DNA of 64,000 bases from Methylotenera sp. GTDB taxonomy: Bacteria; Pseudomonadota; Gammaproteobacteria; Burkholderiales; Methylophilaceae. Both the position numbers and the translations under genes were made by a program. The notes below the pieces were generated by a model. It saw only the letters and a program-made list of their open reading frames with translations. It made no database searches and had not been told where the DNA came from. The DNA lies in contig JAUXNQ010000055.1 of NCBI GenBank assembly GCA_030682715.1, positions 1 to 64,000 of the forward strand, given 5' to 3'. This document shows, one piece after another, positions 3,885 to 29,600 of the stretch (position 1 is the first letter of the stretch; each line of letters opens with the position of its first letter).

Positions 3885-5219
3885 ATGCCTGCAAACATAC
3901 TGAACTTAGTGGACTACACTGTAATTTCCGTGAATAACACTGACCATGATTATCATATTAAAGCTGAGACTAAATCTACGCCAATTCAATGCCCTACTTG
4001 TAATTCAAAAAGTATCGTTGGCTTTGGCCGCCGTGAGCAATTGATTAAAGACCTACCTATGCATGCTAGGCGCGTAGGGATTTACGTCAGCACAAGACGC
4101 ATGAAGTGCCGATCGTGTGCAAAAACTTTCAGTGAAACATTGCCAGATGTTGATGATAAACGTGCAATGACAAAACGCTTACTGGAATGGATCGGCAAGC
4201 AAGCTATTAAACGAACATTCACCAGCATTGCTGAAGAGGTCGGCATTACCGAAGGTACAGTTCGTGTTGTCTTTAATGACTACATCAACGTACTTGAGAA
4301 AACAGTTCGCTTTGAAACGCCTACATGGATGGGTATAGATGAAATCTACCTGATTAAACCCCGCGGCGTAATTACCAATATTCGCAATAACACGGCTGTA
4401 GAAATTCTCAAAGACCGCAACAAGAAAACGGTAGCTGATTACCTATATCGACTTAAAGACCGCGATGATGTGCAATACGTGGCAATGGACATGTGGAAGC
4501 CATACCGTGACGCGGTAGCCGATGTAATCCCACAAGCCAAGGTTGTGGTTGATAAGTTTCATGTAGTGCGCATGGCTAACGACTCAATGGAACGTGTCAG
4601 GAAATCAATGAAAGCTGATTTAACGCTAAAACAGAAGCGCGGCCTGATGCATGACAGATTTGTATTGCTACGTCGCCAACATGAACTTACTGACCAAGAG
4701 AGTTTTAACTTGGATGGTTGGGCTAAGAATTACCCGTTGCTAGGCGAGGCGTACAGGCTCAAGGAAGCGTTCTTTGGTATTTATGATGCCAAGACACAGC
4801 ACGATGCTATGCAACGCTATGAGGCGTGGCGCAAGAGCATTCCCACAGAGCTATATAGTTACTTTTTACCGATTATTACAGCGTGGTCAAATTGGCAACC
4901 GTGCATTATTGAATACTTCAATCATCCAGTGACCAATGCTTATACCGAATCGCTTAATAACTTAATTCGCGTGATGAATCGTTTAGGTCGTGGCTATAGT
5001 TTTGAAGCTTTAAGAGCTAAGATATTGTTTAGTGAAGGCGCACATAAAGTCATTCAGCCAAGACCTAAATTTGAACGTAGAGAGGAATCAGCAAGCATGA
5101 GTTATGCAATGTTTTCACTGGGAGATTCTCTGCCATCAACACGAACTACAGAAAAATCAAAAAACTATGGTGCTGATTTATCAACACTGGCACGTATGAT
5201 TGAACGTGGTGAGATTTAA
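3885..5219 (+). CDS. ISL3-family transposase
   Basis: A 444-residue protein with the full ISL3 plan. There is an N-terminal zinc finger (CPTC at about 34-37 and CRSC at about 75-78), then a helix-turn-helix (FTSIAEEVGITEGTVR), then the DDE domain with GIDEIYL, VAMDMW, VVDKFHVVR and NAYTESLNNLIR carrying the acidic residues. Length and motifs are intact, so the enzyme may be active. It begins about 100 bp after the TetR stop and ends 30 bp before the right inverted-repeat tip. Confidence 0.93.
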   Translation: MPANILNLVDYTVISVNNTDHDYHIKAETKSTPIQCPTCNSKSIVGFGRREQLIKDLPMHARRVGIYVSTRRMKCRSCAKTFSETLPDVDDKRAMTKRLLEWIGKQAIKRTFTSIAEEVGITEGTVRVVFNDYINVLEKTVRFETPTWMGIDEIYLIKPRGVITNIRNNTAVEILKDRNKKTVADYLYRLKDRDDVQYVAMDMWKPYRDAVADVIPQAKVVVDKFHVVRMANDSMERVRKSMKADLTLKQKRGLMHDRFVLLRRQHELTDQESFNLDGWAKNYPLLGEAYRLKEAFFGIYDAKTQHDAMQRYEAWRKSIPTELYSYFLPIITAWSNWQPCIIEYFNHPVTNAYTESLNNLIRVMNRLGRGYSFEALRAKILFSEGAHKVIQPRPKFERREESASMSYAMFSLGDSLPSTRTTEKSKNYGADLSTLARMIERGEI

Positions 5220-25350: not shown

Positions 25351-26451
25351 TTAAGCAGAAGCCTGCAAAGTTTTCTTGTAGTCTTCAGGGGATACGCCCA
25401 TTTGTTTGCAAACTGCTAATTGGGACTCGGTAAGGTCGGTAATGCCGTCACCTTCTGGAATATTGCCGCCTGTCTGTGTGGCGGTTAACGCTACAATAGG
25501 CTGAGCCGTAGCAATATAAGAACGTAACGCGGCAATGTCACTTTCACCCAAACTACGCGCCCAAGCCTCTTGCGTTGGTAATAAACGGCTATCAGACAAA
25601 GCGACAGTGACCAGATCATTCACTTCATCTTCGTTAATCTTTTTGTTAAGCGCTGCGAGCTGAGTCTGTAAATCTTGCATCACTGTTACTGGCACAAACT
25701 TAGCAGGGTCTGGCGTAGCAACCTGTGCGGTTAGGCTTGCGATTGATTGATGTTGAGCACTCAAGTGAGCGATAAGGTTAAAGCTTGCCGCTGCTGTAGC
25801 GTTTTCAGCCTTGATCAGATCAACCGCTTTGTTGACTTCAACCAAAATGTCATCAGTGGTTGCCAAAGTTGGCAGGTTAAACATCCAGCGCAAGCGCTCT
25901 AGTAAAGCTTCTAAGTCCATTGTTAAACTCTCCGTGTGTGTTAAAAGTTGTGAAGCAGCCGTAATGGTCGCTTCGCTCATGCCATCTAAAGCAGGACTGT
26001 TGGTGACTGCACCAAGTAGGATTTTTTGTACTGCGCCTGTTGTTTTGCTGTAAGCAAATACAGGTGAGAAGTAGAGGTATTCTTTTGCTTCAATATGCGC
26101 TTGTGCTGTGGCTGTCCATTCAACATCAGTTGCGAACAGACCTTCACCTTCCCGCCACTCAACGGTTTTAAACCAACCAGCAGCAGGCGCTGGCTTGCCG
26201 TTATCTTTGGATAAAAGTGTTTGATGTTCGTAGTCGATGACTATGCGGTTTTTACGTGCAGATAAATCTGCAATGAGAACGGCTGCGATTGCAGCGTCAA
26301 TAAACCAAAAGTCAACCTCGGTAGGGCGGCCATCTACTGACCTGAACTCACCAGCGGGGAATAGTTGAAGCTCTGCCGTTGCAGTAAGGGTAAAGCTACA
26401 AGCTACGATTGCAGCATCTGTTTTCTTGAGTTGTTTTGATTTTTGTTTCAT
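25351..26451 (-). CDS. Head maturation protease/scaffold (Mu gpI)
   Basis: About 366 residues from ATG 26451 (MKQKSKQLKK). The N-terminal Mu-like protease domain contains RIVIDYEHQTLL and YLYFSPVFAYSKTTGAV, then a C-terminal helical scaffold part rich in Ala/Gln. It cleaves scaffold and itself during head maturation. I chose 26451 because the proposed late promoter puts transcript start at about this ATG; ATG 26466 is the ORF-track alternative. Confidence 0.88.
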   Translation of the reverse strand: MKQKSKQLKKTDAAIVACSFTLTATAELQLFPAGEFRSVDGRPTEVDFWFIDAAIAAVLIADLSARKNRIVIDYEHQTLLSKDNGKPAPAAGWFKTVEWREGEGLFATDVEWTATAQAHIEAKEYLYFSPVFAYSKTTGAVQKILLGAVTNSPALDGMSEATITAASQLLTHTESLTMDLEALLERLRWMFNLPTLATTDDILVEVNKAVDLIKAENATAAASFNLIAHLSAQHQSIASLTAQVATPDPAKFVPVTVMQDLQTQLAALNKKINEDEVNDLVTVALSDSRLLPTQEAWARSLGESDIAALRSYIATAQPIVALTATQTGGNIPEGDGITDLTESQLAVCKQMGVSPEDYKKTLQASA

Positions 26452-26458
26452 GTCGCCC

Positions 26459-26504
26459 ATTTTCATGGAGCGAGGGGGTTGGTGCGATACTGAGGAGCTT
26501 CAGT
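26459..26504 (-). promoter_or_regulatory. Candidate phage late promoter upstream of gene I
   Basis: Minus strand: dyad ACTGAAGCTCCTCAGT (26489-26504), 24 nt, GAAAAT (26459-26464), then 7 nt to ATG 26451. Same layout as at 14633 and 33323. In Mu a late promoter is known upstream of gene I. Confidence 0.6.
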
Positions 26505-26773
26505 AGTGAGGTGGCAGGGGTGATTGCGTTGCCACTTTTAAAGATTACCTGCTATAAAAAAACTAGGCAACCATTAATTTATTAAAAACCGCCTTCTATT
26601 TGTGATAAATATACCGCCTAGAATAGCGTTAAACCCCCGTTAAAAACGATTAACTATTTTTTTGCTAGTGAATGCCGCTTGAAACATTAAAATACAGCCT
26701 AATCGGCGTTTAAAAACTTTGCTTGATTTAATATTTTGCTATTTGTTAACAGAAGGCTTAAACTTGACAGCAA

Positions 26774-26877
26774 GCAGGTGCGACACGGTGATATTCTCCC
26801 GGCCGTAACACAGCAGTGATGCTGGAGTGCTATGTGGGGTTTCCGCTTTAAGCGGACTGGGAGGCCCCACCACCTGC
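26774..26877. ncRNA. Structured RNA element between phage genes F and I
   Basis: A 104-nt block directly beyond the gpF stop closes on itself with GCAGGTG/CACCTGC. Inside are GTGGGG/CCCCAC (26834-26839, 26865-26870) around CCGCTTTAAGCGG, and CAGCA-GTGA-TGCTG. It lies in an uncoding 430-bp gap. No U-tract follows on the minus strand; TTTTA follows on the plus strand. Either strand could fold; expression as part of the minus-strand late message seems likelier. I cannot assign a family. Confidence 0.55.
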
Positions 26878-26880
26878 GTT

Positions 26881-28041
26881 TTATTTATTCAGTAGCCTCT
26901 TAATCTCCCTATCACGCTTTACTTGGTCACTTGATAAGCGTCTGAAGCTAGTCATAAACACAGCTTTACCTGTGCCTGTTGTTTTAACAACAGTGACATA
27001 ACCATCCAGCTCCAACAAATAGATCAGTGAATTCCCATCTTGGATTCTAATTCCACGTTCAATTGCCTGCTGCACAAAGGCATATTCTTCAACTGCCAAC
27101 TCAGGGTGTACTCTCAGTTGCTTCTGCATGGTTTCAGCAGATAGCCTAACAGTGTGCGTCTTCGCACCGATGGCCGCTGCATCGTCATCACTAATTACGC
27201 CTATCGGGAACAAGCCTTTTGGTGCTGCAAAATATTGCGCAAAAGACTCACCCTGCAAGAGCGACTTGAGCGTGCTTGCAGCCAATGCTACGTTCACAGC
27301 ATCAAGCTTATCGGTGATGTATTTTGGTAGGTTAGCTAGCCTGCCACCTGGTGGGTAATTGAACGAAGGGTGTACGCCTTTAGGCACTTGCATCACTTCA
27401 CCAGTGCGTTTGTTTGTGTAGTTTACTTTTGGCACTACTGGCGCTTCAGACACTTTCAAACCCCGCCGCTCTAGCATGGCCGCATTCATCTGACGCACGC
27501 GGCATTTGCAGCCATATTCTTTCACTGGCATGTGCGATAGCCAGAATGGGTCATCGGCAGGCAGCACCATGCCATCCCATGAGGAATGCACTAGGCGCGG
27601 GTGTTCGCTATTGTTGCCGTCATATTGCAGATATGGGAATGCAGCCTTTGCATTTTGAATGCGCTCCCATTGCCCCTCGCTGTGTGCAGTGCGTAAGTTG
27701 GTGTCGTAAATCGTTTTAAGCCTACGAGTACTGCCCAGCTGCACGTTCTTTATCTCGCCAGTTTGCGGGTCTTCCATGTCAGCTTTACCCCACCAGCCTT
27801 TTTGCACCAGTATCGGTTTTAGCTGCTTGCGAAAATCACTAAACGGCGTGCCATCTGACAGCGCTGCATCAACAGCCTTGCGGATATCTTCCAGCAAGTC
27901 TATCTGCATGGCCTTGGCCACGGTGAAGGCGGCTTGGTGCTCTTGCTGCCACACATCCTCCCAAGCAAAGCCGATCAAATATCCTTTTTGCCTAAAGTAT
28001 TCAATGGCCTCTTTAGGCGGCAGTGATTTTAGCTCAAACAT
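26881..28041 (-). CDS. Minor head protein (Mu gpF, gp30)
   Basis: 386 residues. The Phage_Mu_F domain is visible as RLKTIYDTNLRTAHSEGQW, LVHSSWDGMVLPADDPFW and EYGCKCRVRQM. gpF is packaged with the head and needed for assembly. The C-terminus adds a domain (from about residue 270) with VRLSAETMQKQLRVHPEL. Its start overlaps the portal stop by one base. Confidence 0.92.
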   Translation of the reverse strand: MFELKSLPPKEAIEYFRQKGYLIGFAWEDVWQQEHQAAFTVAKAMQIDLLEDIRKAVDAALSDGTPFSDFRKQLKPILVQKGWWGKADMEDPQTGEIKNVQLGSTRRLKTIYDTNLRTAHSEGQWERIQNAKAAFPYLQYDGNNSEHPRLVHSSWDGMVLPADDPFWLSHMPVKEYGCKCRVRQMNAAMLERRGLKVSEAPVVPKVNYTNKRTGEVMQVPKGVHPSFNYPPGGRLANLPKYITDKLDAVNVALAASTLKSLLQGESFAQYFAAPKGLFPIGVISDDDAAAIGAKTHTVRLSAETMQKQLRVHPELAVEEYAFVQQAIERGIRIQDGNSLIYLLELDGYVTVVKTTGTGKAVFMTSFRRLSSDQVKRDREIKRLLNK

Positions 28042-29600
28042 TATTCAGCGCTTGGGCCATTAACACGCCCCCAAATGCTTGCAGCAAATTGACCTTGCGT
28101 TAACGCCTCTGTCACAAGGCTAATATCCATGCCTGCAATAAGGCTTGGTAGCTTTGCTGTAAATTCTTCATATGATTCTACAGAAGCAGCAAGGGCGGCA
28201 ATTGGCTCAATAAGTGGGTTTGTTACACGCTCCCAATCGCTGGACATCTCCTCACCTAGTAGATCAAACTCATCTTGGTCTAAGTTGGCTGTAGCCGCAA
28301 CGATACGTGTTGCAGCTACCTCATTAGTTTGTCCTGGCACTTCTTTTTTTGCAGGCTGCAGTACTGCTTCACCTTCTTTTGGTAGCGGTATTCCAAGCTT
28401 CTCATGCGCCCAATTAACAGGCACTTGCACGCCAATGGCAACCAGTGGAGGCAACGCGTCAGAGTAGGTTTTAATATCTTCAGGCTCGCGCAGATCAAAC
28501 TGCCACTTAGGCATGCGGCGTGCGTCTTCTATGCCGCCAAGGTTAAGCGCAATCAATGGGTAAACAATATCCCTGCTGAGCGTACCAGCAAGCTGCATCG
28601 CGTCTGACATCATCAAGTCATGGCGCACCTCATTATGTACATTACCTAGTGCATTGGTGCTGCTCTTGCCATCAGCCTGACTGGTAAGTGTGCCGCCTAA
28701 AATAGCTTTGCTTTGGGTCCGTTCGCACCAATCAATCATTGCTTGAAATGGATCGTGAGAGCCTTTGGCCGCATCTTTAAAATCAATCTCCATGCCATCA
28801 GGAATAATGCCAGCTGCATCATGGCCAATAGCCAATACAGCACGTAGTAGTGTGGCTTTCTCATCATCGCCTGAGCCGCTTGGATATTTGCCCAAGCGTA
28901 GTGGCAAACCATAAATCTCAAGGAACTCTGCAAGATCTCGCACGCTGTAGTTTTTAAACAGGTATGGCCAAGCTAATACACGGTGTAATCCAGACCTAGC
29001 AAGATAGCCAGACTTAGCTTTGTGGATATGCTTAACCCAGCCGAACGGTTGCAGTGCTTGGCCGTTCATTGAGTTATCACGTAAGCGAAGCTCGGTGCGT
29101 GTTTCGTTATCGGTTTTAAACCAGCTTTGTGGTCTGTGCGTTATTTCTTTTGGTAGCCATGTGCGGCCAAGCAACTGCCACTCAATTTCTTGGCATGAGA
29201 AACCGTGCCCAATAGCATCAAGCGCATCAAGGATCACGTCTTCAATATTGGCAATATCCATCACCAGCTCTTTAGCTTCAGCTGCGATCTTCTTTTCTTT
29301 AGCACTTGGGTTACGTGGCGGCACTATGTCCCAGCTAATCTTCAATAAAGCACGCTTACGCTTGCTCATCTCAGAAAAGATATGGCCGTCTTTTTCTTCC
29401 ATATCTAAAAACAGATCATGCTGCGCACGAATATCACCTTGCTCTGCATTCTCCATAATTCTGGCAAGTTTTATGGGCGTTAAACCACGGCTTGGGTGGC
29501 CTGCAAACTCATGATGTAAACCGCCAACTTTGGCGGTCTGTGATTCTTTTAACTCCAGCTTTTTAATGGGCTGCCCGTGTTGATCTAGTATCGCTACCAT
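28041..29600 (-). CDS. Portal protein (Mu gp29, DUF935)
   Basis: 519 residues, DUF935 family: AGHPSRGLTPIKLARIMENA, EMSKRKRALLKISWDIVPP and GYLARSGLHRVLAWPYLFKN. It forms the dodecameric DNA portal of the capsid. It overlaps the terminase gene by 7 bp and gpF by one. Confidence 0.94.
   Translation of the reverse strand: MVAILDQHGQPIKKLELKESQTAKVGGLHHEFAGHPSRGLTPIKLARIMENAEQGDIRAQHDLFLDMEEKDGHIFSEMSKRKRALLKISWDIVPPRNPSAKEKKIAAEAKELVMDIANIEDVILDALDAIGHGFSCQEIEWQLLGRTWLPKEITHRPQSWFKTDNETRTELRLRDNSMNGQALQPFGWVKHIHKAKSGYLARSGLHRVLAWPYLFKNYSVRDLAEFLEIYGLPLRLGKYPSGSGDDEKATLLRAVLAIGHDAAGIIPDGMEIDFKDAAKGSHDPFQAMIDWCERTQSKAILGGTLTSQADGKSSTNALGNVHNEVRHDLMMSDAMQLAGTLSRDIVYPLIALNLGGIEDARRMPKWQFDLREPEDIKTYSDALPPLVAIGVQVPVNWAHEKLGIPLPKEGEAVLQPAKKEVPGQTNEVAATRIVAATANLDQDEFDLLGEEMSSDWERVTNPLIEPIAALAASVESYEEFTAKLPSLIAGMDISLVTEALTQGQFAASIWGRVNGPSAE

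Follow-up and report, generated by a model that had tools for sequence, protein, structure and literature searches.

A pseudoknotted RNA gene opposite the MuF head-protein gene of Mu-like prophages, possibly an antidote to a PBECR3/RelE-like domain

MuF polymorphic toxins combine a shared MuF N-terminus with a variable C-terminal nuclease, adjoin a candidate immunity factor and also occur with orphan-like copies, and the locus described here shares each of these traits. In other MuF toxins, the immunity gene follows the toxin gene (PMC5576092). However, the immunity factor of those systems is a small protein gene, whereas the candidate considered here is a gene for an RNA and lies opposite F. 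In the part of the source that was accessible (PMC5512222), PBECR domains are presented as predicted RNases of virion-delivered proteins, those belonging to MuF proteins are presumed to be injected, Mu F is classed as an inactive PBECR, and no RNA partner was found described for PBECR3. More generally, the C-terminal extensions of MuF proteins in Proteobacteria have been published as domains of unknown function or as predicted RNases, and no immunity factor for these extensions was found reported in the open-access literature.

Type III toxin-antitoxin systems (ToxIN, CptIN and TenpIN) offer another comparison since there, like here, a pseudoknotted small RNA is coupled to a predicted endoribonuclease. 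The type III antitoxin nevertheless consists of tandem repeats upstream of the toxin within one operon, and the toxins are ToxN, CptN or TenpN, whereas the present RNA is single-copy, convergent at the 3′ end and preceded by a predicted promoter of its own, and the predicted nuclease, a PBECR/RelE-like domain, is part of a phage head protein. As gene order, number of copies and fold of the nuclease all differ, the element was not filed as a type III member.

Structured RNAs have furthermore been described among Mu-like late genes. The Mu-gpT-DE family (RF03012), to which the initial annotation had wondered whether the element might be related, is one of these, but it occupies a different place from the present element (which lies between F and I/G) and its model gives no match there. 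Hammerhead and twister ribozymes near Mu-like genes are likewise compact conserved RNAs of Mu-like prophages, whereas the present element is without a ribozyme-model match, is tied to a nuclease domain and appears to have a dedicated promoter.

Locus, fold and conservation of the element

The stretch of Methylotenera sp. DNA that was analysed (contig JAUXNQ010000055.1, 64,000 nt, hereafter the window) contains a Mu-like prophage whose late genes, as identified with Pfam, lie on the minus strand. Specifically, the portal gene (28041–29600) is followed by gene F, encoding the 386-aa minor head protein MuF (26881–28041; PF04233, 57.6 bits), and by the protease/scaffold gene I (25351–26466; PF10123, 365 bits). 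F and I are separated by a gap of 414 nt, in which the 104-nt structured RNA element (26774–26877, plus strand), supported by a CM, covariation and a pseudoknot, begins 4 nt past the F stop. The ORF check of the window revealed only non-coding DNA and chance ORFs of at most 44 aa from F to I, with no plausible small immunity ORF directly after F.

The gap also contains a separate conserved motif (CGTTTTTAACGGGGGTTTAACG, 26626–26652, read on the minus strand) and presumably the promoter of I, so that the element accounts for only a quarter of it. The motif includes a conserved TTTAACG, lies outside the RNA and recurs in relatives without the RNA, and its location matches the place of the strong gyrase site of Mu, in whose annotation a gyrase cut site is found between G and I; the motif may well be the replication-related gyrase site of the prophage. 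The initial annotation thus rightly placed the element in this gap but overstated its extent in having it fill the whole of it; the motif and, presumably, the gene I promoter both lie between the element and I. In one relative (L016), the gap is ~280 nt longer than that of the window and encloses a long inverted repeat (GTAGTGTCTCAGTTTGGAATCTA / TAGATTCCAAACTGAGACACTAC), suggestive of a short insertion.

The C-terminal domain of F (F_C; 26884–27309, minus strand) is a predicted RNase of the PBECR3/RelE-like (BECR) type. Its AF2 model reached a pLDDT of 94, and the best PDB match to this model was the RelE toxin (4fxh), although this match was weak (E 0.012). PBECR3 (PF18812) itself was matched weakly, at E ≤ 1, by 14 of 52 close F_C homologues, and the F_C of the window on its own stays below the Pfam cut-off, whereas the diverged Pasteurellaceae homologues score 43–66 bits against a gathering cut-off of 30. 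With a PF04233 N-terminal MuF domain and a nuclease-like fold at its C-terminus, F has the layout of a MuF polymorphic toxin, and we infer from sequence and model that F_C is a toxic RNase. Its catalytic set is uncertain, since the Pasteurellaceae domains, although still accompanied by the RNA, do not retain the H68 found in the main class.

The predicted fold of the RNA is a junction closed by helix P1 and locked by a 5-bp pseudoknot. P1 pairs 26774–26780 with 26871–26877 (GCAGGTG/CACCTGC), with changes on both sides in 6 of its 7 pairs, which confirms the 7-bp closing helix with internal hairpins that had been annotated initially. Inside P1, P2 joins GTGGGG (26834–26839) to CCCCAC (26865–26870; both-side changes in 4 of 6 pairs), and P5 joins ACGG (26785–26788) to CCGT (26803–26806), a helix that is invariant in the main class and covaries in Pasteurellaceae-type prophages (from GCGAU/AUCGC to GCGGU/ACCGC). 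The pseudoknot, a feature absent from the initial annotation, connects CTCCC (26796–26800) with GGGAG (26859–26863), was paired in 290 of 290 cells and displays compensatory pair types. The P4 hairpin (AGCA-gtga-TGCT, 26812–26823) has four covarying pairs and, beneath these, a further covarying base pair at columns 58–110 of alignment A4 (this alignment, like A2, R1 and R2, is in F-strand orientation); a previously drawn P4 base (columns 55–59 with 107–111) was dropped in favour of this pair. The P3 hairpin (26842–26856) is optional, being missing from many copies in the alignment. The fold was better than that of shuffled sequences on both strands (z –2.26 on the plus and –3.84 on the minus strand). 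The element had been judged not to be a simple terminator, and none was indeed found there on the minus strand; nor was a clear intrinsic terminator found for the RNA itself, only a U-rich tail past P1.

Homologues were gathered through relatives of F and through two pattern scans of viral contigs, yielding some 60 elements, of which 58 were used for covariation scoring over 34 pairs. Standard pairs filled 93% of the pair cells, compared with 77% for shuffled data. The covariation score amounted to 0.421 versus 0.125 after shuffling, a value matched by none of 500 shuffles, while structures slid out of register scored at most 0.093. Changes on both sides occurred in ~20 of the 34 scored pairs, and the second pseudoknot pair alone was found as UA (40), CG (16) and AU (2). 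Moreover, a mutual-information scan over all column pairs recovered the same pairs, including that of the pseudoknot, and brought out the previously undrawn pair under P4. A further pseudoknot type (CUGCC/GGCAG) was present in two loci (L106 and L131). The covariation and the pseudoknot compensation bear out the initial description of a conserved multi-stem RNA element.

A diverged class, represented by 23 distinct prophages of the Pasteurellaceae type, kept the same layout; the host label of this class derives from the named phages SuMu and 3927AP2 and beyond these is inferred. In this class, 199 of 207 P1 cells and, through several pair types, 115 of 115 pseudoknot cells were paired, and each beat 2000 of 2000 shuffles. 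An Rfam scan returned no family at the element in the window or its relatives: with Rfam 15 there was no match at gathering score, and nothing relevant for the F–I gap at E ≤ 10. A DNA-level search of phage and plasmid collections with the element of the window as query likewise yielded no relevant match, and comparison of the F–I gap DNA with 100 near relatives gave chance hits only. The RNA family thus seems to be missing from Rfam, even though isolated phages, Haemophilus phage SuMu among them, carry it.

Strand and promoter of the RNA

An initial model in which the RNA was read on the F strand was overturned by the distribution of non-standard pairs and by the side of the promoter. When the helices are read on the F strand, A.C combinations number 34 and G.U combinations 2; on the opposite strand the counts are reversed (34 G.U and 2 A.C), and the predicted energy was lower on the strand opposite F for 46 of 61 copies. 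The putative promoter is sigma-70-like and located on the plus strand (26736–26764), with a –35 box TTGCTA (26736–26741) and a –10 box TAAACT (26759–26764) separated by a 17-nt spacer, together matching 8 of 12 consensus positions and placing the predicted transcription start at ~26771. Homologous promoters mostly have a 17-nt spacer and stand 6–9 nt before P1.

Sites with at least 8 of 12 matches were clearly concentrated on the RNA side. In the F_C-linked main class, such a site was present on the RNA side in 74% of cases, compared with 6% for the opposite side and 8% for shuffled sequences, and the corresponding figures were 95%, 5% and 29% for the Pasteurellaceae class and 29%, 0% and 6% for free-standing copies. 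The A.C excess on the F strand and the promoter on the opposite strand indicate that the RNA is read from the plus strand of the window, against F and I, as the plus-strand coordinates of the initial annotation already had it. Since the RNA reads against both genes from a predicted promoter of its own, its earlier assignment to the late operon is not upheld. No ORF of note accounts for the element, which is best read as a separate RNA gene convergent with F.

The compact core, with its many invariant bases and its resemblance to a nested pseudoknot ribozyme, would also suit a new class of self-cleaving ribozyme, and an enrichment of hammerhead and twister ribozymes in the vicinity of Mu-like phage genes has been published (PMC10085705). 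A self-cleaving RNA nevertheless appears very improbable given that there was no match to an Rfam ribozyme at E ≤ 10, that the RNA seems to have a promoter of its own mostly 6–9 nt before P1, that P3 is optional, and that the element is tied to a single protein domain (see below). An HDV-like ribozyme, prompted by the topology, was considered and set aside because of the optional P3 and the absent model match.

Association of the RNA with F_C

Among the 59 elements with flanking DNA, 56 adjoin an ORF that ends in F_C, and 55 of these lie within ~60 nt of the F_C stop (some of the loci being near-duplicates). The chief association of the RNA is therefore with the C-terminal domain of F and not with gene I. 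The linkage holds even where F_N is only 26–44% identical. Conversely, the relatives L011 and L020–L025 kept F_N at 69–79% while F ends near residue 256–260 and both F_C and the element are missing; in the alignment of L020, F_C and the element are both gone and the rest of the F–I gap is conserved around the loss. In the remaining linked locus (L036), a dam-like (DNA adenine methylase-like) gene is located between F and the element.

A fairer test of this linkage is provided by searches that start from the domain instead of the RNA, and these were run on two samples of 369 and 399 genomes. Where the DNA continued past it, an intact F_C was accompanied by an RNA detected by the model in G000, G172, G232, G299, G503 and, twice, G761, and by a diverged RNA of the same layout, recognised by eye just past the stop, in G468, G666 and G801. 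In all four genomes in which F_C was disrupted or altered (G246, G262, G142 and G758), the RNA was absent. Among 44 Pasteurellaceae-type loci found via F_C, the diverged RNA was present in all those where the sequence was long enough. In G761, one locus (L144, contig C1) carries two RNA copies (2569–2665 and 5001–5099) within ~2.4 kb, and a third copy stands beside another MuF gene (L145). Near a MuF locus of G666, Rfam also identified a C4 antisense RNA (L149, 2714–2800, minus strand; 59.7 bits).

Two isolated phages, Haemophilus phage SuMu and Mannheimia phage vB_MhM_3927AP2, carry F_C, and the RNA is matched in SuMu by DNA that directly follows MuF and carries no annotation. Phage B23 is without both the conserved K/H/K of F_C and the element, and in phage Mu the F stop overlaps G and there is no element. 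The correspondence is not complete, as L208 retained a good element though the invariant K109 of F_C is replaced, and L026 has an intact F_C, yet no element was detected by the model. For Histophilus somni, the accessible part of the published RNA-seq tables lists no separate small RNA at the expected place, next to which lies an expressed ORF, HSP12, homologous to a SuMu protein (PMC3262788).

Such an arrangement might also point to an antisense regulator, whose convergent transcript would overlap the 3′ end of F and limit F or the downstream late genes. Some type I antitoxins overlap the 3′ end of their target, the RNA is convergent with F within ~60 nt of its stop, and in three loci (L014, L017 and L031) the F stop even falls within the element. 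We nonetheless consider this role rather unlikely, as selection acts on structure, including the pseudoknot, and not on complementarity, MuF genes missing only F_C are also without the RNA, and no F is found near free-standing copies that share the core.

Free-standing copies and a proposed function

In the sampled bacterial genomes, free-standing elements (~12) outnumber F_C-linked ones (~7), indicating that F_C is not the sole context of the RNA. Their neighbours include BrnT/BrnA with an integrase, a recombinase with a SIR2_2 protein, a Fic protein, AntA/Rha, a Mor-like regulator, a CRISPR-like array and, in two related genomes, a reductase gene; in some cases (L027, L094 and L132), the element stands next to Mu genes in unusual order. 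In L134 (G576:C82, 5001–5961), the RNA lies directly downstream of the BrnT/BrnA pair, by an integrase fragment, BrnT being an RNase toxin. In L136 (G709:C16, 1100–7009), it is flanked by a large serine recombinase and a SIR2_2-domain protein of 1286 aa, a context typical of defence islands, and in L137 (G491:C9, ~4000–5093) near a direct-repeat array resembling a CRISPR array. With regard to the pairing of the outer P1 extension, free-standing copies were no different from linked ones. These copies are compatible with orphan immunity RNAs, and equally indicate that the RNA is able to function or persist without F_C.

The variety of these neighbourhoods fits a phage small RNA with a regulatory or anti-defence host target of its own, which would share an accessory cassette with F_C without further relation to it. 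RNA distances moreover track F_C and F_N equally (partial 0.28 and 0.29), and F_C-specific co-evolution was not found. We regard this independent role as unlikely, however, as the RNA was absent from the examined MuF loci in which F_C was absent or broken. The same F_C–RNA linkage, in a head protein, might alternatively mean that the RNA is a partner of F_C, the complex being packaged and injected or the RNA directing the nuclease. In the accessible part of the source, injection is indeed presumed for the PBECR domains of MuF proteins (PMC5512222), but chromosomal free-standing copies without an adjoining head protein render this improbable.

The reading that we favour, if only tentatively, is that the RNA is an antitoxin or immunity RNA for F_C, the RNase domain of MuF. 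A constitutive-looking gene opposite a predicted RNase, its co-loss with F_C, its tight pseudoknotted fold and the orphan copies all point this way. The RNA would thereby correspond to the immunity genes found behind other MuF toxins (PMC5576092). The RNA gene, with its own sigma-70 promoter, would point towards the 3′ end of F, and its product would bind and neutralise F_C in the producing cell or lysogen, a protection that would also cover F_C injected by a related phage. In Mu-type lysogens, the late operon that encodes F is normally silent, as established for Mu. The sigma-70 promoter might then keep the RNA present while the late operon is off, so that the RNA would presumably be made in lysogens; its inhibition of F_C is likewise a putative step. 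The chromosomal free-standing copies could in turn serve as orphan immunity RNAs.

It is conceivable, though doubtful, that the arrangement is widespread, such that each Mu-like phage with an active MuF-PBECR3 encodes opposite it a pseudoknotted RNA as cognate antidote, while bacteria and mobile elements keep free-standing copies against injection. An RNA gene that comes and goes with F_C would explain how the phage protects itself, and, if true, would add the BECR fold and virion proteins to the known targets of RNA antitoxins.
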